Below, piece after piece: positions 16,994-27,764 of a DNA stretch of 29,040 nt. This stretch comes from a virus. The DNA lies in the IMG/VR virus record IMGVR_UViG_3300042540_000112, positions 1 through 29,040 of that record. The stretch is one strand, 5' to 3'. Below the pieces are notes generated by a model. That model ran no database searches. It saw only the letters and a program-made list of their open reading frames with translations, and was not told the origin of the DNA. Position 1 is the first letter of the stretch. Each line of letters starts with the position of its first letter. The position numbers and the translations under genes are program-made.

Positions 16994-17785
16994 ATGGAAA
17001 TTGAATTTGATCTACAAAATGACTTTAGTGAAGTAGAAGAATATGACTTTGGAAACGGACCAGTACCAGCACACCGCCACCCTCGTGGTGGTGGCTGGGT
17101 GGCCAACACAGCTTCGGTTGATGATACTTGCTATGTCGGTCCATATGCCAGAGTTTTTGAAAATGCTCAAGTAAGCGGTAGTTCTATCATCAATGATGGT
17201 GCTTCCGTATTCGGTAATGCTACAGTATGCCTTGGTTCAAGAGTTTATGGTGATGCCATGGTATATGATAGTGCCTCGATTAGAGACAATGCCAGAGTAA
17301 GTGGTTTCAGTAAAGTATATGGTAATGCCAGGGTCATGAACAATGCCCAGATATATGAGAACGCTGAAATCTATGACAATGCCATTGTATGTAACAATGC
17401 TGAAATCTATGATAACTGTAAAGTTTATGGTAATGCTTACATCTATGAGTGTATTAGATTGTATGGTCACACGGTAGTCACCAGAAAGCCATTACTTGGT
17501 CTTGGTTTTGATTACCCAGTAACCGTTACCGATCATCATGTTCTATTAGGTTGCACGGTGGCTCCACCATCAATACTAAAGAAACTCGGTAGAAGAATTA
17601 TAACCTTGATAGGCTATGATAGAGAAACTGCCGAGTTATGGTTGGATATCGTTTCTAAACTCATCGAGGTACACGGATGTACCGATATTGAGGAAGAACT
17701 TACACCAGAGAACGAACGTAACGTTATACTAAATCTCATAACAGAAAGAAATGCAGGAAGTGACAGAGATTCGAGAACCAGATAA
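16994..17785 (+). CDS. Hexapeptide-repeat left-handed beta-helix protein
   Basis: 263 residues, with AAGGTGA overlapping the previous stop as ribosome-binding site. After an acidic start (DLQNDFSEVEEYDFGNG) comes HRHPRGGGWVANTASVDD. Residues about 50-155 are a near-perfect 6-residue repeat [GDEN]-N-A-x-[VI]-[YSC], for example GNATVC, GDAMVY, DNARVS, ENAEIY, DNAIVC. Such repeats form a left-handed parallel beta-helix, as in LpxA-type acyltransferases and the YdcK family. The C-terminal 80 residues include TVTDHHVLLGC and a helical segment with ETAELWLDIVSKLIEVHG. No acetyltransferase active site can be assigned, so a structural role is at least as likely as an enzymatic one. Phage genomes often carry similar genes of unknown role. 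The last 35 bases overlap the next gene. Confidence 0.75.
   Translation: MEIEFDLQNDFSEVEEYDFGNGPVPAHRHPRGGGWVANTASVDDTCYVGPYARVFENAQVSGSSIINDGASVFGNATVCLGSRVYGDAMVYDSASIRDNARVSGFSKVYGNARVMNNAQIYENAEIYDNAIVCNNAEIYDNCKVYGNAYIYECIRLYGHTVVTRKPLLGLGFDYPVTVTDHHVLLGCTVAPPSILKKLGRRIITLIGYDRETAELWLDIVSKLIEVHGCTDIEEELTPENERNVILNLITERNAGSDRDSRTR
17072..17093 (+). other. Strong hairpin early in the beta-helix gene
   Basis: CACCGCCAC at 17072-17080 can pair with GTGGTGGTG at 17085-17093 (nine pairs, one G-U) across a CCTC loop. It encodes the H-R-H-P-R-G-G-G segment. No U-run follows, so it is not a typical terminator. The pairing may be only a by-product of the Pro/Gly-rich codons. Confidence 0.4.
17161..17460 (+). 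repeat. Tandem 18-bp (hexapeptide) repeats
   Basis: About sixteen consecutive hexapeptides follow the pattern [GDEN]-N-A-x-[VI]-[YSC]. At DNA level the units vary around 'aatgcc aga/gaa gta/atc tat', with synonymous drift between copies. Confidence 0.8.
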
Positions 17786-17979: not shown

Positions 17980-18786
17980 ATGGCATTAGCAAACGTCGCA
18001 CTCACAGATACATTTGATTATTGGAGAACAGTCACAAACTCAACCGTTGTTGCTCTAAACGACAAGTTGATTTTCTGTAATACATCAAATGCTAATACAG
18101 TATCTATTCCATCATTCGCTTCTAGATCAAGTAATCTTACTATCAACATTCTAACATCTTCATCGGTCAATGATTCCGCTTCTGGAAACATTGCTTCCGC
18201 TCTAGTTGTTAATACAGTTCACGGACTTGCTATATCTTATGTGACTGCTGCTAACAGCAATGCACAGATTTCGGTTGCTTCTGCTAACGCATGGTCAAAT
18301 GCCGTAGGTCTGGCGTCAAATGGTTGGTCAAATACTGTATCACGTTCTGCTAACTCATGGTCAAACACAGTTGGTGCGTCAGCTAATGCATGGTCAAATG
18401 CCGTAAATACATATTCAATTGCTACATATGCCACTAAGATTAGTCCAACATTCACCGGCACCGTTACAATTGATGCTAACATTGCCAACCAAACACTAAC
18501 CGACGGTTCGACAATTAACTGGGACGTTTCTCTTGGTTCAGTTGCCACGGTCACACTAGGCGGTTCTAGAACAATGGCAGCGCCGACCAATCTCAAAATT
18601 GGTACATATATACTCCATGTGGTACAAGATGGTTCAGGTGGCAGATCACTAACTTGGAACTCCGTATTCAAATGGCCTGCTGGTGTTGCACCAACTCTCA
18701 CCTCCACAGCAAATCGCCGTGATTTGTTCTCATTCGTATGTGACGGCACAAATCTATACGGTTCATACCTACCAGATGTGAGGTAA
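17980..18786 (+). CDS. Short tail fibre protein with hendecad repeats
   Basis: 268 residues, starting one base after the previous stop codon. The N-terminal domain (1-95) is beta-rich with no motif I can name. Residues about 100-143 are 11-residue repeats (SANAWSNAVGL, ASNGWSNTVSR, SANSWSNTVGA, SANAWSNAVNT), matching the A/G-N-x-W/Y-x-x-x-V pattern in the giant fibre at 20877. A neck with YATKISPTFTGTVTID follows. The C-terminal domain (165-268) has NWDVSLGSVATVTLGGSRTM and then GTYILHVVQDGSGGRSLTW, ending DGTNLYGSYLPDV. That domain is a familiar C-terminal module of phage tail fibres. The likely role is a trimeric fibre of the adhesion apparatus. Its immediate neighbour is the glycine-rich adhesin. 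Confidence 0.75.
   Translation: MALANVALTDTFDYWRTVTNSTVVALNDKLIFCNTSNANTVSIPSFASRSSNLTINILTSSSVNDSASGNIASALVVNTVHGLAISYVTAANSNAQISVASANAWSNAVGLASNGWSNTVSRSANSWSNTVGASANAWSNAVNTYSIATYATKISPTFTGTVTIDANIANQTLTDGSTINWDVSLGSVATVTLGGSRTMAAPTNLKIGTYILHVVQDGSGGRSLTWNSVFKWPAGVAPTLTSTANRRDLFSFVCDGTNLYGSYLPDVR
18278..18410 (+). repeat. Four 33-bp hendecad repeats
   Basis: Four consecutive 11-residue units with consensus S-A-N-x-W-S-N-x-V-x-x. 'tggtcaaat' and 'tggtcaaac' recur every 33 bases. Confidence 0.8.
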
Positions 18787-18792
18787 TAATAT

Positions 18793-19956
18793 ATGTTTCT
18801 AGCACCGATTGTTAGACCAACTAAGGTAGTTATAATCAGCGCAAACACGAGTGACGTTGATCTATATTCTTCTGTAAGTAGTCCATCATATCCATTAAAT
18901 GTTCTTTGCTTCGTTAATGCTGCTGTTTCAGGTTCAACACCAACGACTCCAGCTTTCAGAACAAATTCATCATGGACTCCTGGTACATGGATCTATATTG
19001 AGAACAATTCTACTATTACAGGTTCAAAAGGTAATAAAGGCTCTACAGGCTCTACAGGATCCAAAGGTTCTACAGGAACTACAGGCGGCCAAGGAACTAC
19101 AGGTAGTAATGGCTCTGGTGGTCACGGTGGTCACGGCGCTAGTCATACTAATACAGGCAACCATGGTGGTGGCGGTGGTACAGGTGGTACCGGCGGTACA
19201 GGTGTTACAGGCGGCACTGGTGGCACGGGAGCCAAAGGCGGCACAGGTGCTACAGGAGGTACTGGTGGTACATCATTCGTAGCCGACGCTGCTACAGGTG
19301 TTGCTATCGTTCTTAACAACAAAAATGCTATTGTCGGTGGTACAGGCGGTGATGGTGGTGACGGCGGCACTGGTGGTGATGGTGGTGACGGTGGCGCCGG
19401 CGGCGCAGGTGGTCACGGAGGAAACGGTGGCGGCGGAGGCGGCGGCGGTGGCGGTGGTGCTCACGGCTACGGACAGCATTATAACACTGGTGCTTATGGT
19501 GTTCAGCACGCCCACGGTGCTAACGTCCACGCAGGTGGCGGCGGTGGTGGCGGTGGTACAGGTACTGGTGGTCATGGTGCTCCTGGCGGCGATGGTGCAG
19601 GTCACGGTGCTAATCACGGCGGCGCCGGCGGCGGTCCAGGTGGCGGACACTATGGCGGTAACCAACACCACGCACACGTTCATGGTGGTCATGGTGGCGC
19701 AGGCGGCGCTTATAATGCTGCTGGCGGTCATGGTGGTTCAGGTCACGGTGCAGGTAACCACGGTGGTGCTGGCGGTGGTCCAGGTGGCGGCGCCGGTGCT
19801 TTTGGTGCTACTGGAGCAACTGGAGCCACAGGTTCAACTGGTGCTCAAGGCGCCACAGGTGATACAGGAGCCCAAGGCTCTCAAGGTAATGCTATCACAG
19901 GTAATACATACATCAATTACATCAACAACACCCATGTATCGGGCCCAGTTGCTTAA
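18793..19956 (+). CDS. Glycine/histidine-rich adhesin (collagen-like and polyglycine-II-like)
   Basis: 387 residues. A folded N-terminal cap (1-75) ends in SWTPGTWIYIENNSTITG. A collagen-like G-x-y run with Thr, Ser and Lys follows, then long GGx runs. A short non-glycine strand (GVAIVLNNKNAIVGGTGG, about residues 169-186) interrupts these, and the C-terminal run GATGATGATGSTGAQ leads to a polar tail with INYINNTHVSGP. The 'strand, N-x-x-I-x-G, then GGxGGxGG' layout resembles phage tip adhesins such as gp38 of Salmonella phage S16, where glycine-rich motifs pack as polyglycine-II helices. About 23 histidines are interspersed. The locus is clearly richer in G+C than its neighbours because of GGT/GGC codons. 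A receptor-binding role is inferred; a purely structural collagen-like stalk is the alternative. Confidence 0.7.
   Translation: MFLAPIVRPTKVVIISANTSDVDLYSSVSSPSYPLNVLCFVNAAVSGSTPTTPAFRTNSSWTPGTWIYIENNSTITGSKGNKGSTGSTGSKGSTGTTGGQGTTGSNGSGGHGGHGASHTNTGNHGGGGGTGGTGGTGVTGGTGGTGAKGGTGATGGTGGTSFVADAATGVAIVLNNKNAIVGGTGGDGGDGGTGGDGGDGGAGGAGGHGGNGGGGGGGGGGGAHGYGQHYNTGAYGVQHAHGANVHAGGGGGGGGTGTGGHGAPGGDGAGHGANHGGAGGGPGGGHYGGNQHHAHVHGGHGGAGGAYNAAGGHGGSGHGAGNHGGAGGGPGGGAGAFGATGATGATGSTGAQGATGDTGAQGSQGNAITGNTYINYINNTHVSGPVA
19021..19895 (+). repeat. GGN-rich triplet/sextet repeats
   Basis: Low-complexity DNA of GGT/GGC codons alternating with ACA, GAT, CAC and GCT. It is interrupted by a non-repetitive stretch at about 19270-19335. 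This composition also produces long open frames in other phases, which are not genes. Confidence 0.85.
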
Positions 19957-19965
19957 GAGGAACAA

Positions 19966-20499
19966 ATGAACATTCAATATCGCATCATTAAGATTGATCC
20001 GGAATCACACGGTGTAGTAATTCGCTATTTCACCGACAAGTTGACTGAAATGGATCTGGCATCATCATTTAACGAAGATGGTTCTGTTAAGCTAAATGCA
20101 GACGGTTATCCTGTTGCTACAAGAACCGACGTTCTAATGACCTTGTATGATACACCAACTCCATCTACAGAAGAAGTTGAAAAGAGAATTATGATCAATG
20201 CTCCTGTTGATTGGTTGAAGATCCATGAAGAAATCAAAGATCCAAATATCGATACCAAGATGAGAAACCTTAGAGATTTGGTTGGAGATACCAAGGCATT
20301 CACGGTTGAGGACATTAAAGACCTAAAGAATGCCATGATCGCAGAACAGGCTGCATCGGCAGAGGCAATACAGAAAACCGAAGAAACCGAACTTCTAAAA
20401 GCATATGATACTGTCACCAACCTGGTTGATTCCTTAAAGGTTCTATCTGAAAAAGATCCATCATTCATACAAGAGTTTTCGGAACTGCTCAAAAGATAA
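19966..20499 (+). CDS. Conserved phage protein, candidate fibre assembly factor
   Basis: 177 residues, ribosome-binding site AAGAGGAAC, start ATG. The N-terminal half begins IQYRIIKIDPESHGVVIRYF and includes ATRTDVLMTLYDTP and RIMINAPVDWLKIHEEIKDP. Similar proteins sit among tail genes in many proteobacterial phages without a known function. The second half (about 105-177) is charged and helical, ending with SLKVLSEKDPSFIQEFSELL. There is no signal peptide or membrane segment. Its place between adhesin and long-fibre genes makes an assembly or chaperone role possible, by analogy with lambda Tfa or T4 gp38/gp57A. No sequence likeness to those proteins is visible, so this is inference only. It is the last gene before a perfect late promoter. 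Confidence 0.6.
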   Translation: MNIQYRIIKIDPESHGVVIRYFTDKLTEMDLASSFNEDGSVKLNADGYPVATRTDVLMTLYDTPTPSTEEVEKRIMINAPVDWLKIHEEIKDPNIDTKMRNLRDLVGDTKAFTVEDIKDLKNAMIAEQAASAEAIQKTEETELLKAYDTVTNLVDSLKVLSEKDPSFIQEFSELLKR

Positions 20500-20534: not shown

Positions 20535-20873
20535 ATGGCCGAATACGTAGAACTTTACATTGACCAAGGGAGCGATTTCTCTACTACCATTAACCTCAAT
20601 GATGACAATACAAATCTTCCTCAGAATGTTTTAGGTTATACTGTTAGTAGCGCACTAAGAAGATCGTTAGTATCTCCTAACGCATACGCATATCTATCAG
20701 CTTCGGTATATGATCCCGCAAACGGCGAGTTTCTTCTTACAATGAACTCGTCTAATACTGCAAATCTACGTGCAGGTTCTTACCTGTTTGATGTTAAAGT
20801 TACTGACACCACACAAACGGTGACCAGACTTATTGAAGGAGTTATATACGTAACACCATCGGTAACAAAGTAA
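20535..20873 (+). CDS. Small Ig-like virion structural protein
   Basis: 112 residues, about one beta-sandwich domain. The pattern YVELYIDQGSDFSTTINLND, LGYTVSSALRRS, GEFLLTMNSSNTANLRAGSY and LFDVKVTDTTQTVTRLIEG with VTPSVT closely follows the Ig-like/BppU-N-like proteins common in T4-like phages of cyanobacteria and alphaproteobacteria. Those are annotated as virion structural proteins and usually sit beside fibre genes. The expected role is a connector or decoration protein at the baseplate or fibre base. It lies just after a late promoter and three bases before the giant fibre, so the two are probably translated together. Confidence 0.75.
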   Translation: MAEYVELYIDQGSDFSTTINLNDDNTNLPQNVLGYTVSSALRRSLVSPNAYAYLSASVYDPANGEFLLTMNSSNTANLRAGSYLFDVKVTDTTQTVTRLIEGVIYVTPSVTK

Positions 20874-20876
20874 GCT

Positions 20877-23800
20877 ATGTCAATCAAAATCACAACCGGC
20901 GGTGATAACAAAGTAAACGTCACCACAACATCTAAAAACAGAATCCAGATCACCAACGGTGGTTCTGGTTCAATGGCTGGTGTAGCATTAGCTACTGACC
21001 TTATTCCAATCTGGTATCATGCGAATGGTGCTGCTAACGTAGCAAACTATTCCTATGCATCATCTAATTCCAATTGGGCAGTCCAGAACCTGGTTTATGC
21101 CACGGTTAACGCCAACTATACGATGTCTAATGCCGGTTATGTGACGCTAAATGCCGCATACGCAACAGTTAACGCTGTCTATGCTTCTGCAAACTCTAAT
21201 TGGTCAGTTCAAAATCTCGTTTACGCTACTGTAAACTCTAACTATGTTATGTCTAATGCTGGCTACATTACACTTAATGCAGCTTATAGCACCGTTAATG
21301 CAGCCTACGCATCTATCAATTCCAACTGGACAGTCCAGAACCTCGTTTATGCTACCGTAAACGCTGATTATGTAATGAGTAACGCAGCTTATGTTGCTCT
21401 TAACTCAGCCTACGATACTGTCAATGCCGTATATGCTACAGCCAACTCAAACTGGGAAGTCCAGAACGCTCTCTATACAGTTGCTAACACTGTTTACGAT
21501 ACCTCCAATTCAAATTGGGCGGTACAGAATGCCCTCTATTCTACAGCCAATTCTGTTTATGACTCCTCAAACTCTAACTGGGTTGTCCAGAACGCTGTCT
21601 ATCAATTAGCAAATACAATCTATGCTTCCGCAAATTCCAATTGGGAAGTGCAGAACCTTGTCTATGCCACAGTCAATAGTAACTATGTCATGGGCAACGC
21701 TGGTTATGTTGCTCTTAATGCTGCATATGACACCGTAAATGCCGTTTATGCCTCAGCCAATTCTAACTGGGATATACAGAATGTAATCTATGCTACTGTA
21801 AACGCAGATTACACCATGTCCAATGCTTCTTACACGGCATTGAACTCTGCTTTCAATACAGCCAATGCATCATATGATTCCGCTAATTCTAACTGGGCAG
21901 TCCAGAATACCCTATATGCAACCACTAATGCTGCCTATGTTATGGGCAACGCTGCCTATCATACAATCAACGCAGCCTACGCATCATCTAATTCTAACTG
22001 GCAGGTTCAGAACGCTCTTTACGATCTAACCAATACAGTTTACGCATCATCTAACAGCAATTGGACAGTTCAAAATCTAGTTTACGCAACAGTCAATAGC
22101 AGCTACGTTATGGGCAATGCCTCATACGAGGCTCTAAACGCTGCCTTTGATACAACTAATGCCGTTTACGCTTCCGCAAACTCAAATTGGACCGTTCAAA
22201 ATCTTGTTTATGCAACAGTAAATGCTTCCTATACCTTAGCTAATGCAGCTTATGCCAATGCTAACTCACTAGCTATTGGAGCAAACAACTGGTCTAATCT
22301 TGTTGGTCTATCAGCCAACAGTTATGCTGGTTATATGGCAAACTCTGCCAATGCTTACACCGATGCCACATATGTTAAGCTATCATCACCATCACTCCAG
22401 CTAATTTCAAGCGACATTGGAATTACTGGCAATCTATTCATTGTTGGTGAGGTTACATACGCTAACACCAGACAGCTACAGGTTGGTGATAATATCATCA
22501 CCCTCAATGCTGATCTTCCTCTCAACGCTGTTCCTCTGGAAGATGCTGGTATTGAAATCAATCGTGGTCTAAAAGCCAATGCTGCTCTACTCTGGGATGA
22601 ATCCGCTGAAAAGTGGTCAATCTCTGGAAACGTAGCACAGACCATCACAACCTACATCGCTTCAAATACCGATCTTGGTTCAGCACAGGATACTATCAAT
22701 GCGGTATACGCATCAGCAAATTCTAATTGGGTTGTCCAGAACCTTGTCTACGCAACAGTTAATGCCAACTACGTTATGGGCAATGCAGCCTATGTTGCCC
22801 TCAACTCTGCTTATGATACTGTTAATGCTGTATATGCATCTTCTAATTCTAACTGGACAGTTCAAAATCTAGTCTACGCTACTGTCAATAGCAGTTATGT
22901 AATGGGTAATGCGGCATATGCAACTCTTAATGCTGCATATGATACCGTTAACGCCGACTATGCATTTACCAATTCCGCATATGCATCAATCAATTCTAAC
23001 TGGACCGTCCAGAACTTAGTATATGCTACAGTTAACGCTAACTACACAATGGCAAATGCCAACTACGAGTTGAGCAATGCAGCATATGATACACTAAATT
23101 CTAACTACACAATGGCAAATGCCAACTACGAGTTGAGCAATGCAGCATATGCCACGGTCAATGCGGTTTATGCTTCCGCAAACTCTAATTGGACTGTCCA
23201 AAATCTTGTATATGCCACCGTCAATGCCAACTATGATATGGCTAACGCTGGTTATACCACCCTCAATGCGGCTTATGACACCACTAATGCCGTATATGCT
23301 TCGGTCAATTCTAATTGGACCGTTCAGAATGCCGTTTATGATCTAACCAATACAGTATATGCCTCAGCTAACTCTAACTGGGCAGTTCAAAATCTAGTTT
23401 ACGCTACTGTAAATGCCAACTATGTTATGGCAAATGCAAACTATGATTTGACTAATGCCGCTTATGCTTCCGGTAATTCTAACTGGGCAGTTCAAAATGC
23501 TCTTTATGATCTTACCAATACTGTATATGCTTCCAGTAACTCTAACTGGGTTGTCCAGAACGCTATCTATGACCTAACCAATACTGTTTATGCTTCCACA
23601 AATTCCAATTGGGAAGTCCAGAACTTAGTATATGCAACTGTTAATGCTTCTTACACACTGGCAAACGCAGCATACGCTAATGCTAATGCTTTGTCAATCG
23701 GTGCAAATACATGGGCTAACACAGTTGGTATGTCAGCTAATAGCTATGCTGGCTTCATGGTCAATTCTTCCAATTCATATGCCGATGCAACTTATGTTAA

Positions 23801-26800
23801 GCTAAACGATCCTGATCAAACTATTACAGGTGAAATCACTGTCACCGGTAATGTTAGCATCAATCAAAATCTCTATGTTGCTGGTAACGTTTTCTTCAAT
23901 GATTCCCAGACACTAAGAGTTGGCGACTCGCTAATCTATCTTGCTGCTAACAACTATGCTACCGATCTTGTCGATATCGGTTTTGTGGCTAACTATGTCA
24001 ATGCATCAAGCATTAACGTTCATACTGGTCTATATCGTTCTCATATCAGCAAAGAATACTATCTATTCCAAGAGTATAGTGAAGAACCTCATGGTAACTA
24101 CATTGACTATGCTGGCAACAACTTTACGCTGGCCGTTCTTAATGCTGATCTAATCACCAGCAATATATTCCTTGGTGGTGCTAATGCCATTCATACAATT
24201 TCAAGTGCCTTCGATAAGGCTAATGCAGCCTATGTCAATGCTAACGTAGGTTTTGCTGCGGCTAATGCTTACTCAAATGCTACTGGTCTTGCTGGTAATA
24301 ACTATACCTCTATTCTTGTAGCAAATAACGCTATTGGTGCCAATAACTGGGCAAACACAGTAGGTATCGCAGGCAATAACTATACTGATCATGTAGGATT
24401 GTCTGTCAATACCTATGCATCAATCCTTGTGGCTAACAATGCCGTAGGTTCTAACAACTGGGCCAATACTGTAGGCATTGCCGGTAACAACTATACCGAT
24501 TCCGTAGGCGCAGCGGGTAATAACTATACTGTTTCTGTTGGAGCAGCCTCAAATAGTTTAGCAACTGCTATTGGAACCGCTGGCAATAACTATACCGATC
24601 ATGTTGGTCTATCAGTTAACACATATGCTTCCATTCTTGCTTCTAACAATGCAATCGGAGCAAACAACTGGGCCAATACCGTTGGTGCAGCCGGTAACAA
24701 CTATACCAATCACGTTGGTCTATCATCAAATACCTATGCTTCTATCCTTGCAGCTAATAACGCTGTAGCAGCGAACGCATGGGCTAATACAGTAGGCATT
24801 GCTGGCAATAACTACACCGACGCTGTTGGTCTTTCAGTCAATACTTACACCTCAATCCTTGCTGCTAATAATGCGGTTGGTGCCAATAACTGGGCTAACA
24901 CAGTTGGCGTTGCTGGTAATAATTACACCGATTCCGTAGGTGCTGCTGGCAATGCTTACATGCTATCAGTTACCACCGCTGGTAATAACTATGCTTCCGT
25001 ATTGGCCGCTAATAACGCAGTTGGTGCTAATGCATGGGCTAATACAGTTGGAACTGCTGGTAATAACTATACCAATTCAGTTGGTGTTGCTGGAAACAAC
25101 TATACCAATTCTGTTGGCGCATCTGGTAACTCATATGCCGAGACTGTTGGTGCATCCGCTAATACATTTGCCGATGCCACTTACTATAAGAAAACTGGCG
25201 GTCTAATCTCTGGTGATGTTGGAATCTCTGGTAATCTTACCATTTCTGGCACAACCACATTTGCTAACACTCAACAGCTACAAATTGGCGATAATATCCT
25301 TACACTCAATGCTGACCTACCAATGTCAGTTATGCCAGTTGATAATGCTGGTCTTGAGGTAAATCGTGGTAACAAGAGCGCCAATGCTGCATTGCTTTGG
25401 ATCGAAGCATCCGAACAGTGGAGTATTTCAGGCAATACCGCACAGTCTGTTTCAACATACATTGCATCTAATACATTAGTTGAACTATATGCGGCTGCTG
25501 GTAATGCATATTCACAGCAAGTCGGAGCCGCTGGTAACAGCTATACTAATTTTGTTGGTGCTTCTGCTAATGCATATTCGGCTGAGACATATGCAACACG
25601 TTCAAATGTTTCTATTGTCTATAACACAGCAAACGTAGCATTTGACACCGCTAACGATGCCTTCGCTTCGGCAAACAATGTCGCACCACAAATTGCTCCA
25701 AGCTATCGCACAGCTAACAATGCCTATGATACAGCCAATGCGGCATTTGCGGCTGCCAATACTCTTGCACCAGCTTATGGTACAGCCAATAATGCATACG
25801 ATACAGCTAATGCTGCATTTGGTAAGGCTAACAATGCCCTCGCCAATACTACAGGAACATTTGCTGGTAATCTAACGATTTCTGGTTCTACTACCGCCAA
25901 CAATGGCTTTTATTCTCGCTGGGATTACAGAGGACCATTTACTGATGGTATCGTAGTTGACTATGTTGAGGGTGTTGGTCGTGTTTCAGTTGGCGCCAAC
26001 GATAGTCTAACACTATTCAATCATGGTGTTGGTAACATTCCAATTCTAACAATCACCGAATATGGCTTTGTTGGTATCGGAACAACTAATCCACTATATC
26101 CTGTTACTGTTATCGCCAATGGTGCTACGACCACCACTCTGGCTGGTGCAGTCTTTAGTGCCGAAGGTTCAGAGAACGGATATGTCCAGCTAAACATTCG
26201 TAACGCTAACAATGGTTCAGATGCATCTTCTGACTTTGTTGCTACAGCGGACGATGGTGATGATACAAGCAACTATATCGATCTTGGTATCAATTCATCA
26301 CAGTATGCACATCCTGGCTTTACAATTGCTGGTGCTCATGATGGTTATCTCTATACATCGAACGGCAATCTTGCAATTGGTACCGCTAACTCTACTGCTT
26401 ATAAGTCACTATCATTCTTTACTGGTGGCACATTAGCTGGTAATGAAGTTCTACGTATCCAGGACGGTGCCGGTGGTGCTAACATTGGTATCGGCAGAAC
26501 TGATCCAAACTATAAGATTGATGTTGTTGGTTCTATCAACGCTTCTAACATTCTTATCAATGGCATTCCACTTGGTACCGCTTCTGTTAAGGTAAGCAAC
26601 ACCGCTCCTTCACTACCAGCTGGTGGTAATATGTGGTGGGATACCGAGAGTGGTAAGCTATACATTTACTACATTGATGCTGATTCGGCACAGTGGGTAG
26701 AGGCTTTCCCATCAGAGGTAGGAATTGATACCAGCTTTATCATTCCTGTTTATCAGAACGCTAACCTTGCTTATAGCTTAGGTAATACAATCTATGCTTC

Positions 26801-27764
26801 TGTTAATTCTAACTGGACAGTAACCAATACAGTATTTGACGTTGCTAACGCTGCCTTTGCTTCTGCTAATAACGTAGCACCACAGATTGCACCAAGTTAT
26901 ACTACTGCAAATCTGGCATACTTTAACAGCAATGCAGCCTTCATACATGCTAATGCTGCCTTTGATTCCGCTAACAATGTGGCTCCTCAGGTAACACCAA
27001 GCTACAATACAGCAAACATGGCATTCAATACCGCTAATGCTGCTTTTGCTGTTGCTAACAATGTTGCTCCTCAGGTTGAGCCAGCATTTAGAACTGCTAA
27101 CAATGCCTATCTAACTGCTAATCTTGCATTTGACAAAGCTAACGCTGGTGGTGCTAATATTGGTCAGACGGCTCCAACTGGATCAAATTCTGGTCGTCTA
27201 TGGTGGAACTCTGATCTTGGTAAGCTGTTCATCTACTATACCGATCCAGCTAACACAAGTTCATGGGTTGAAACTAATCCATCATCATCGGTTATTGAAG
27301 CTGCTATCATTACTGGCTACATTAATCCAGTATCAAATACTGCTAATGCCGCTTATGCTGTTGCCAATGCTGGTTACTCATTTGCTAATACGAGACTAGC
27401 AAATAGCACTGCCACCTATTCTGGTAATCTTACTATTGATGGTAATCTTTCGTTTACCGCTAATGATGTTATTACTCTACCAATAGGTCCTACCGCAGCA
27501 AGACCTGGCACGGCTGCTAACGGTATGATCCGTTATAATACAACTCTAAATACATTCGAGGGTTATAAAGCTGGAACATGGGGTGCAATCGGTGGTGGTG
27601 CAACTGGTGGTGGTTCTGACGATGCATTCTATGAGAACACAGCAAACATCACCTCAGATTATACTATCACCACTGGCAAGAATGCTATGACGGCAGGTCC
27701 TGTAACGATGGCAAACGGAGTTACAATTACAATTCCTGCTGGTTCAACATGGACAGTGGTGTAA
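20877..27764 (+). CDS. Giant repetitive long tail fibre
   Basis: 2295 residues. An N-terminal anchor (1-55) precedes a heptad block (59-490; N-x-x-[Y/W/F]-x-x-x). Knob 1 (502-598) contains LQVGDNIITLNADLPLN, and a second heptad block (601-938) follows. Knob 2 (977-1104) contains LRVGDSLIYLAANNY. A hendecad block (1105-1436; A-G-N-N-Y-T-D-x-V-G) leads to knob 3 (1437-1535), homologous to knob 1, and NTAN/AF repeats. A beta region (1659-1900) has GFVGIGTTNPLYPVTV and NIGIGRTDPNYKIDVVGSI. Two WW[D/N]xxxGKL[Y/F]IYY modules and a tip (GPTAARPGTAANGMIRYNTT, ending TIPAGSTWTVV) finish it. Each knob follows a [A/S]DATY[V/Y]K-type neck. No S74 self-cleaving chaperone is visible. The likely role is a trimeric host-recognition fibre. 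ATG begins three bases after the previous stop. Confidence 0.88.
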   Translation: MSIKITTGGDNKVNVTTTSKNRIQITNGGSGSMAGVALATDLIPIWYHANGAANVANYSYASSNSNWAVQNLVYATVNANYTMSNAGYVTLNAAYATVNAVYASANSNWSVQNLVYATVNSNYVMSNAGYITLNAAYSTVNAAYASINSNWTVQNLVYATVNADYVMSNAAYVALNSAYDTVNAVYATANSNWEVQNALYTVANTVYDTSNSNWAVQNALYSTANSVYDSSNSNWVVQNAVYQLANTIYASANSNWEVQNLVYATVNSNYVMGNAGYVALNAAYDTVNAVYASANSNWDIQNVIYATVNADYTMSNASYTALNSAFNTANASYDSANSNWAVQNTLYATTNAAYVMGNAAYHTINAAYASSNSNWQVQNALYDLTNTVYASSNSNWTVQNLVYATVNSSYVMGNASYEALNAAFDTTNAVYASANSNWTVQNLVYATVNASYTLANAAYANANSLAIGANNWSNLVGLSANSYAGYMANSANAYTDATYVKLSSPSLQLISSDIGITGNLFIVGEVTYANTRQLQVGDNIITLNADLPLNAVPLEDAGIEINRGLKANAALLWDESAEKWSISGNVAQTITTYIASNTDLGSAQDTINAVYASANSNWVVQNLVYATVNANYVMGNAAYVALNSAYDTVNAVYASSNSNWTVQNLVYATVNSSYVMGNAAYATLNAAYDTVNADYAFTNSAYASINSNWTVQNLVYATVNANYTMANANYELSNAAYDTLNSNYTMANANYELSNAAYATVNAVYASANSNWTVQNLVYATVNANYDMANAGYTTLNAAYDTTNAVYASVNSNWTVQNAVYDLTNTVYASANSNWAVQNLVYATVNANYVMANANYDLTNAAYASGNSNWAVQNALYDLTNTVYASSNSNWVVQNAIYDLTNTVYASTNSNWEVQNLVYATVNASYTLANAAYANANALSIGANTWANTVGMSANSYAGFMVNSSNSYADATYVKLNDPDQTITGEITVTGNVSINQNLYVAGNVFFNDSQTLRVGDSLIYLAANNYATDLVDIGFVANYVNASSINVHTGLYRSHISKEYYLFQEYSEEPHGNYIDYAGNNFTLAVLNADLITSNIFLGGANAIHTISSAFDKANAAYVNANVGFAAANAYSNATGLAGNNYTSILVANNAIGANNWANTVGIAGNNYTDHVGLSVNTYASILVANNAVGSNNWANTVGIAGNNYTDSVGAAGNNYTVSVGAASNSLATAIGTAGNNYTDHVGLSVNTYASILASNNAIGANNWANTVGAAGNNYTNHVGLSSNTYASILAANNAVAANAWANTVGIAGNNYTDAVGLSVNTYTSILAANNAVGANNWANTVGVAGNNYTDSVGAAGNAYMLSVTTAGNNYASVLAANNAVGANAWANTVGTAGNNYTNSVGVAGNNYTNSVGASGNSYAETVGASANTFADATYYKKTGGLISGDVGISGNLTISGTTTFANTQQLQIGDNILTLNADLPMSVMPVDNAGLEVNRGNKSANAALLWIEASEQWSISGNTAQSVSTYIASNTLVELYAAAGNAYSQQVGAAGNSYTNFVGASANAYSAETYATRSNVSIVYNTANVAFDTANDAFASANNVAPQIAPSYRTANNAYDTANAAFAAANTLAPAYGTANNAYDTANAAFGKANNALANTTGTFAGNLTISGSTTANNGFYSRWDYRGPFTDGIVVDYVEGVGRVSVGANDSLTLFNHGVGNIPILTITEYGFVGIGTTNPLYPVTVIANGATTTTLAGAVFSAEGSENGYVQLNIRNANNGSDASSDFVATADDGDDTSNYIDLGINSSQYAHPGFTIAGAHDGYLYTSNGNLAIGTANSTAYKSLSFFTGGTLAGNEVLRIQDGAGGANIGIGRTDPNYKIDVVGSINASNILINGIPLGTASVKVSNTAPSLPAGGNMWWDTESGKLYIYYIDADSAQWVEAFPSEVGIDTSFIIPVYQNANLAYSLGNTIYASVNSNWTVTNTVFDVANAAFASANNVAPQIAPSYTTANLAYFNSNAAFIHANAAFDSANNVAPQVTPSYNTANMAFNTANAAFAVANNVAPQVEPAFRTANNAYLTANLAFDKANAGGANIGQTAPTGSNSGRLWWNSDLGKLFIYYTDPANTSSWVETNPSSSVIEAAIITGYINPVSNTANAAYAVANAGYSFANTRLANSTATYSGNLTIDGNLSFTANDVITLPIGPTAARPGTAANGMIRYNTTLNTFEGYKAGTWGAIGGGATGGGSDDAFYENTANITSDYTITTGKNAMTAGPVTMANGVTITIPAGSTWTVV
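21053..22250 (+). repeat. Heptad repeat block 1 of the fibre (21-bp units)
   Basis: Uninterrupted 7-residue units N-x-x-[Y/W/F]-x-x-x, such as NAVYASA, NSNWTVQ, NLVYATV, NANYTMS, NAGYVTL. Longer repeats of several heptads are visible, marked by NSNW. Confidence 0.9.
22680..23690 (+). repeat. Heptad repeat block 2 of the fibre
   Basis: Same heptad as block 1, after knob 1. It includes the only long exact DNA duplication I found in the gene (23038-23088 and 23101-23151). Confidence 0.9.
23038..23151 (+). repeat. 51-bp perfect direct repeat, 63-bp offset
   Basis: The 51 bases beginning ctaactacacaatggcaaat at 23038 recur identically at 23101. The offset of 63 bases equals three heptads, so the frame and repeat register are preserved. 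It encodes NYTMANANYELSNAAY twice. Confidence 0.92.
24270..25185 (+). repeat. Hendecad repeat block of the fibre
   Basis: Eleven-residue units AGNNYTDHVGL and SVNTYASILVA, plus GANNWANTVGI preceded by a 4-residue NNAI/NNAV insert, form a ~37-residue superunit repeated several times. The units match the hendecads of the 17980 fibre. Confidence 0.85.

Follow-up and report, generated by a model that had tools for sequence, protein, structure and literature searches.

A histidine-rich, gp38-like polyglycine adhesin predicted in an uncultured T4-like phage

The question raised by one gene of an uncultured virus is why a protein that is more than one third glycine should also carry an unusual load of histidine, and whether that load may have to do with the recognition of the host. 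The gene lies at 18793..19956 (stop codon included) on the plus strand of a viral contig of 29,040 bases (IMG/VR virus record IMGVR_UViG_3300042540_000112, positions 1 to 29,040; the whole of this stretch is here called the window), which also carries T4-like baseplate genes, namely a hub/lysozyme gene and several wedge subunits. A preliminary description, made from the letters of the sequence, had read the product as a polyglycine adhesin of the gp38 type that combines collagen-like G-x-y and GGx runs with about 23 histidines. We consider it probable that the gene encodes a gp38-like polyglycine host-recognition adhesin of an uncultured T4-like phage; confidence in the adhesin family is high, but it is low for any particular function assigned to the histidines.

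Histidine in a glycine framework

The open reading frame (ORF) is a single open frame of 387 residues, of which 36.2% are glycine and 23 (5.9%) histidine, and the motifs of the preliminary description could all be located. Collagen-like G-x-y occurs at residues ~76-106 and ~335-365, with GGx and polyglycine runs between. The 17 remaining proteins of the window contain 95 histidines in 9181 residues (1.03%), and at that rate the binomial probability of finding at least 23 in 387 residues is ~4e-11. Base composition provides no explanation, since the GC content of third codon positions is 31% and yet the histidine codons are mostly CAC. An assembly artefact is excluded because near-identical intact copies of the ORF (99-100%) are present in several further IMG/VR contigs, and codon differences from the relative at locus L010 (103 synonymous, 30 non-synonymous) follow a pattern as for a protein under constraint. 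The histidine-richness is confirmed as a real feature.

The histidines are confined almost entirely to two of five segments, all on the plus strand. The N-terminal beta-helix core (residues 1-75, 18793..19017), which ends in WTPGTWIYIENNSTI and is supported by the strands of an AlphaFold2 model and by a glycine-free profile that connects it with gp38 and with shorter relatives in phages, contains none. It is followed by a first glycine excursion (residues 76-159, 19018..19269), collagen-like G-x-y giving way to GGx, with 4 histidines in 84 residues, and by a middle core (residues 160-182, 19270..19338; TSFVADAATGVAIVLNNKNAIVG), again free of histidine, which was defined by predicted strands and in which a counterpart of the gp38 motif GxRLRInNxGxIxGGGG was recognised by eye in the gp38 alignment. 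The second excursion (residues 183-365, 19339..19887) is made up of GGx, polyglycine, variable segments bearing histidine and tyrosine, and a terminal G-x-y stretch. It holds 18 histidines in 183 residues, or 20% of its non-glycine residues, and includes both the variable loop AHGYGQHYNTGAYGVQHAHGANVHA (residues 223-247, 19459..19533), which loop comparison places between two flanking polyglycine runs, and the histidine cluster NQHHAHVHGGHGG (residues ~290-302, 19660..19698). The C-terminal core (residues 366-387, 19888..19953; NAITGNTYINYINNTHVSGPVA), again marked by predicted strands, carries the motif G[NY]AIxGNxxI common to the wider family and one histidine in 22 residues. Thus 22 of the 23 histidines lie within the two excursions, whereas the 98 residues of the N-terminal and middle core segments include none.

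The gene, part of a T4-like tail module, recurs in about ten related uncultured contigs. Close relatives of the protein are encoded at fourteen IMG/VR loci, and further relatives were collected by a profile scan, by the end motif given above and by targeted scans; a scan with one of the alignments (A2) fell onto polyglycine patterns and yielded one irrelevant locus. Alignments A2 and A3 share a common framework, consisting of the N-terminal core, an excursion, a middle core with NNxxxIxGG, a second excursion with polyglycine and the C-terminal core, and in shorter members of the family all three cores are present but the excursions are much shorter. Complete members of the clade to which the protein belongs range from 3.5 to 8.5% histidine (5.9% here and in L010, 8.5% in L011, 6.1% in L012, 3.5% in L013, 5.4% in L049 and 5.1% in L085), and partial members ending before the second excursion contain 0 (L014), 1.6 (L015) and 4.7% (L027). 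In six sister proteins that share this framework (L081, L109, L120, L210, L211 and L212) the content is 0-0.3%, and a midpoint-rooted tree of the N-terminal core splits the histidine-rich clade from these histidine-poor sisters with support of 97/97. Seventeen gp38s, sampled across the range of matches to S16 gp38, have 0-3.8% histidine (mean 1.7%), and neither HH nor HxH occurs in them. It had been claimed that such a content is unusual for the gp38 type, and these values bear that out; histidine at this density is routine among the complete members of one clade and not beyond it. On these sequences the enrichment is limited to one clade and predates the protein's own species, to judge from the levels seen across the clade, its sisters and the gp38s together with the tree.

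No match was obtained by tblastn in 50,697 phage records with the whole protein, its N-terminal 86 residues, the joined cores or the short relative L056, partly as a result of glycine masking; no relative was found in 84,980 prokaryote genomes; neither Pfam (E 0.1) nor NCBIfam provided a family; and a literature search brought up no paper on phage adhesins of this histidine-rich polyglycine kind. Weak matches of one relative to collagen-like adhesins in Pfam/NCBIfam were attributed to composition, and sequence matches in the PDB (collagens and kinesin linkers among other stretches rich in glycine) were rejected for the same reason.

Kinship to gp38

The kinship to gp38 rests on a glycine-free core profile, an intermediate family of shorter proteins and a fold search. 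The N-terminal core was compared alone and free of glycine, so that glycine was not scored. A profile of the shorter family treated in this way detected the protein at an expect (E) value of 2.3e-6 and other members down to 5e-12, and it also detected the gp38s of SF3, RB49 and SP21535 at E 7e-5 to 2e-4, the best of 500 shuffles reaching 0.03. A hidden Markov model (HMM) of the wider family scored 17 of the 17 gp38s at 67-130 bits, against no more than 65.5 bits for 340 shuffles that kept glycine in place. The AlphaFold2 model, built from 19 sequences, has a mean predicted local distance difference test (pLDDT) score of 67.5 and a confident core, with strands at residues 10-15, 36-41, 66-71, 74-76, 162-164, 171-176, 179-181, 368-370 and 374-377. 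When it was searched against the PDB with Foldseek the best solved structures were the gp38s of PP01 (9v85_C, E 0.0065) and S16 (6f45_D, E 0.0095), each at a probability of 0.96, followed by a second PP01 chain and then by the snow flea antifreeze protein, which is also a bundle of polyproline-II-type helices; in a viral library gp38-domain phage proteins were matched as well. The claim of a polyglycine adhesin of the gp38 type is upheld by these folds and by the core profile, and translation, model, fold search and profile together give the annotation used here. The receptor-binding half of the protein is, by profile comparison, homologous to gp38.

A number of results weigh against this reading. 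The Foldseek E-values are modest and the superposition is poor (template modelling score 0.22 by query length, root mean square deviation 22-25 A). Residues 215-333, which contain most of the histidines, have pLDDT below 50 and the overall predicted template modelling score is 0.54, so that the model lends no support to the packing of the excursions. A direct gp38 HMM was not significant on the protein, with 28 of 200 glycine-keeping shuffles reaching its score, and profile-profile alignment with gp38 by hhalign was weak (probability 30%); the link to gp38 therefore passes through the intermediate short family. Finally, the helical module by which gp38 attaches to gp37 through its N-terminus, with its conserved tryptophan (MAVxGxWxGxSAVxETGQ), is absent, and the protein opens directly with the beta core (MFLAPIVRPTKVVIISANT). 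Since this module is lacking and there is no Pfam match, the protein is not filed as a gp38; it would nevertheless work like one, and its family, gene neighbourhood and fold suggest a role in adsorption.

Possible roles of the histidines

In gp38 a polyglycine-II (PGII) sandwich is formed by two extended turns emerging from the beta-helix (PMC6851490; PMC12892980), and the variable distal loops have been proposed or shown to be the receptor site (PMC6851490; PMC12892980). The present protein is probably likewise the tip protein with which a T4-like myovirus recognises its host. A small beta-helix core would hold two long glycine-rich excursions, which would fold as PGII helices packed against one another like those of the gp38 adhesins, and the variable segments between helices would form exposed loops at the distal end. 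In this clade many histidines, along with tyrosines, would occupy these loops and those x positions of GGx that face outwards, and the histidines would most likely serve as an aromatic, hydrogen-bonding and near-neutral contact surface that touches a receptor on the host. The histidine loops would take the place of the tyrosine-rich loops of the sister proteins; the segment between the main polyglycine runs is AHGYGQHYNTGAYGVQHAHGANVHA here and AAHGYGSHHVYVYYAVGHHGGHITA in L049, and is tyrosine-rich and free of histidine in L211 and L212 (YTGYYPSYTPAQGYTPAYAYSGITA; TGWSSSYYPAYSEGYSYYPASYVPGYPNT). That the histidines form a receptor-contact surface is a tentative proposal, to which we give a little less than an even chance. 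Of the roles considered, receptor contact without an obligate metal is ranked first, followed by metal binding, drift and a response to pH.

Drift supposes that the x positions of GGx and the loops accept polar residues of every kind, and that this clade has simply drifted to histidine. Five comparisons of retention bear on it, the counts being approximate since the alignments are of low complexity. In the nearest relatives histidine is retained better than other non-glycine residues. L011 retains 19 of 22 histidines but 64 of 131 other non-glycine residues (Fisher P 0.0008), which argues against drift, as do the low histidine content of the other window proteins and the codon usage described above. 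The figures for L010 (21 of 22 against 114 of 132) are not significant alone, and L049 (13 of 22, P 0.09) exhibits a weaker trend. In the more distant members L012 (7 of 20) and L013 (5 of 20) the trend is absent, which speaks against a conserved contact surface, and histidine positions there turn over at the rate of other residues, as drift would have it. Histidine also falls to its lowest level among complete members in L013 and to zero in the first excursion of L014. Drift is considered rather unlikely on balance.

Binding of metal ions (iron, zinc, nickel or copper) might stiffen the tip or, as has been proposed for phage fibres bearing HxH, might imitate a complex of iron and ligand at a metal-uptake receptor of the host. 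The cluster HHAHVHGGH is kept here and in L010 and L011, and HAH/HSH-type spots occur in L012 and L049; there is, moreover, a precedent in the tip of T4 gp37, where iron ions are held by HxH (discussed in PMC11705849). The first loop of L011 (H-Q-H-C-x4-C-H-A-H) is suggestive. However, the clusters are lost in the clade member L013, in the trimeric T4 fibre three chains together make up the sites whereas S16 gp38 is a single chain (PMC6851490), and spacing statistics do not favour a site: when residues were shuffled among non-glycine positions 1.6 HxH were expected against 3 observed (P 0.20), and HH and HxxH likewise lie within the range given by composition. HxH as a selected motif was rejected as unsupported. 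L011 is the only member with an excess, a weak one of HxxH (P 0.03, uncorrected). Metal binding, which the preliminary description had offered, is thus possible but unsupported so far, and we regard it as unlikely; the more particular proposal of a gp38 tip in a form loaded with metal, in which the PGII lattice would present an ordered, exposed histidine array whose metal recognises a host metal-uptake receptor, is improbable. As a separate observation, the adhesin of L011 (L011:5001-6194) contains 34 histidines (8.5%), and its loop H-Q-H-C-V-P-Y-G-C-H-A-H between polyglycine runs is the best candidate for a metal site in the clade.

The preliminary description had further offered stacking of the histidines in the glycine lattice and pH-dependent binding as possible roles. 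Protonation of histidine could make binding dependent on pH or attachment reversible, and many histidines are probably exposed in excursions with few charged residues (7 D/E and 5 K/R in 290 residues, as counted for charge). No sequence feature bears on this idea, the phage setting is not one known for large changes of pH, and we think it very unlikely. A different kind of alternative is that the protein is not an adhesin and serves the virion as a structural spacer, glycine-rich or collagen-like. By sequence its collagen-like segments match both collagen and the shafts of tail fibres, and many phage fibres contain short stretches of G-x-y. The layout of two excursions on a beta-helix, the fold matches to gp38 and the concentration of variability in the segments between glycine runs all argue the other way, and a spacer is judged distinctly improbable.

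Work on gp38-type polyglycine adhesins has centred on phages of enterobacteria; the favoured reading, a gp38-like adhesin, would extend the type to T4-like phages that are environmental and uncultured, in versions whose glycine excursions are far longer and which include collagen-like parts. That one glycine framework has 0% histidine in one clade and as much as 8.5% in a second provides a clean comparison for mechanism, and the scaffold illustrates the amount of loop variation that a polyglycine lattice can accommodate. Should the histidines bind metal or set the choice of receptor, direct tests of host recognition would become possible in these phages.

Gene neighbourhood and known systems

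After the baseplate genes come genes for a hexapeptide beta-helix protein and for a small protein of coiled-coil, virion type, then those for a tail fibre, the adhesin, a 177-residue protein, a tail-fibre-assembly-type protein and a repetitive protein of 2295 residues. A 693-residue wedge protein has its closest isolates among T4-like phages of Synechococcus, Pelagibacter and Methylophilales (35-39% identity). The beta-helix protein (window 16994-17785) is of the left-handed hexapeptide/YdcK repeat type and keeps its position in the tail module in close relatives' loci. The tail fibre (17980..18786, plus strand, 268 residues) stops 6 bases before the adhesin and would be the distal subunit that probably bears it, an assignment suggested by adjacency, which is kept in relatives, and by a C-terminal domain found in fibre genes of other phages. 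That domain (residues ~160-262, ending in DLFSFVCDGTNLYGSYLPDVR) is common to unrelated phages, with identity of up to 61% to Methylophilales phage MEP301, and counterparts of the fibre in relatives range from 268 to 752 residues.

Immediately downstream is the 177-residue gene (19966..20499, plus strand), a candidate for an adhesin-specific folding helper that adjoins the adhesin in relatives with flanks. The order fibre, adhesin, small protein is conserved in close relatives with flanks, the small proteins of relatives beginning MNIxYKIxxxxxxHxIVxRYWTD. The model has N-terminal strands and long C-terminal helices at low confidence (pLDDT 64.5, predicted template modelling score 0.24), a layout that may be compatible with a helper like that of cyanophage Pam3; no PDB sequence match was found, nor any fold match above noise when Tfa and Pam3 gp25 were sought. 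An identification as a chaperone could not be confirmed beyond the conserved adjacency; the adhesin would probably fold with the help of this protein. Next come the tail-fibre-assembly-type gene (20535..20873, plus strand; phrog_1084 / phrog_3304) and the gene for the 2295-residue protein (20877..27764, plus strand), which has no Pfam or PHROG match and is by position and repeats probably a giant tail fibre; the repeats include NSNWTVQNLVYATVNANYVMSNAAY and NNYTDSVGAAG.

Neighbouring enzymes were noted at other loci. In two histidine-rich lineages a 2-oxoglutarate-Fe(II) oxygenase gene (PF13640, E 1e-14 / 1e-15; L022:7760-8395 and L294:6722-7336, also L297) comes right after the adhesin and its 177-residue-type partner, and the adhesin excursions of L022 and L294 hold 12 and 10 prolines. 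The gene is absent at that place in the window and in L021, L023 and L024, where the excursions hold 2-4. The oxygenase could, to judge from these two independent cases, hydroxylate the neighbouring adhesin. In the histidine-free sister clade a fatty-acid-hydroxylase-type membrane enzyme gene follows soon after adhesin and partner (PF04116, assigned in L209 only, at L209:8467-8931); similar genes occur in L211, L212, L120 and L081.

Set beside known systems, the protein resembles gp38 of the T2/S16/PP01 type (PDB 6F45, 9V85) in its predicted beta-helix core, homologous by profile, its two glycine-rich excursions with variable loops between glycine motifs and the position of its gene straight after a fibre gene. 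It differs from gp38 in the length of the excursions (84 and 183 residues against 18 and 77 in S16), in its collagen-like G-x-y, in a histidine content above the gp38 range, in the lack of the gp37-attachment module and in being followed by the 177-residue gene rather than the holin gene usual after gp38. Cyanophage Pam3 has a glycine-rich tail fibre, gp24, with its own chaperone, gp25 (PMC9608196); the distal domain of many glycine motifs and a helper of similar layout on paper are points of likeness, but no structural match of the 177-residue model to gp25 was found. The T4 gp37 tip likewise places histidine at the end of a phage fibre, but it is trimeric and of a different fold, and HxH here does not exceed composition. 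The protein differs from collagen-like proteins in that its G-x-y stretches are short (~30 residues each), bordered by GGx and polyglycine and never long and uninterrupted. The same architecture and end motif are shared by glycine-rich proteins of uncultured phages ending GNAIxGNxxI...TGTRxGPI (phrog_10745 and unnamed), which outside the present clade have 0-2.4% histidine, with no enrichment, and which are its direct homologues.
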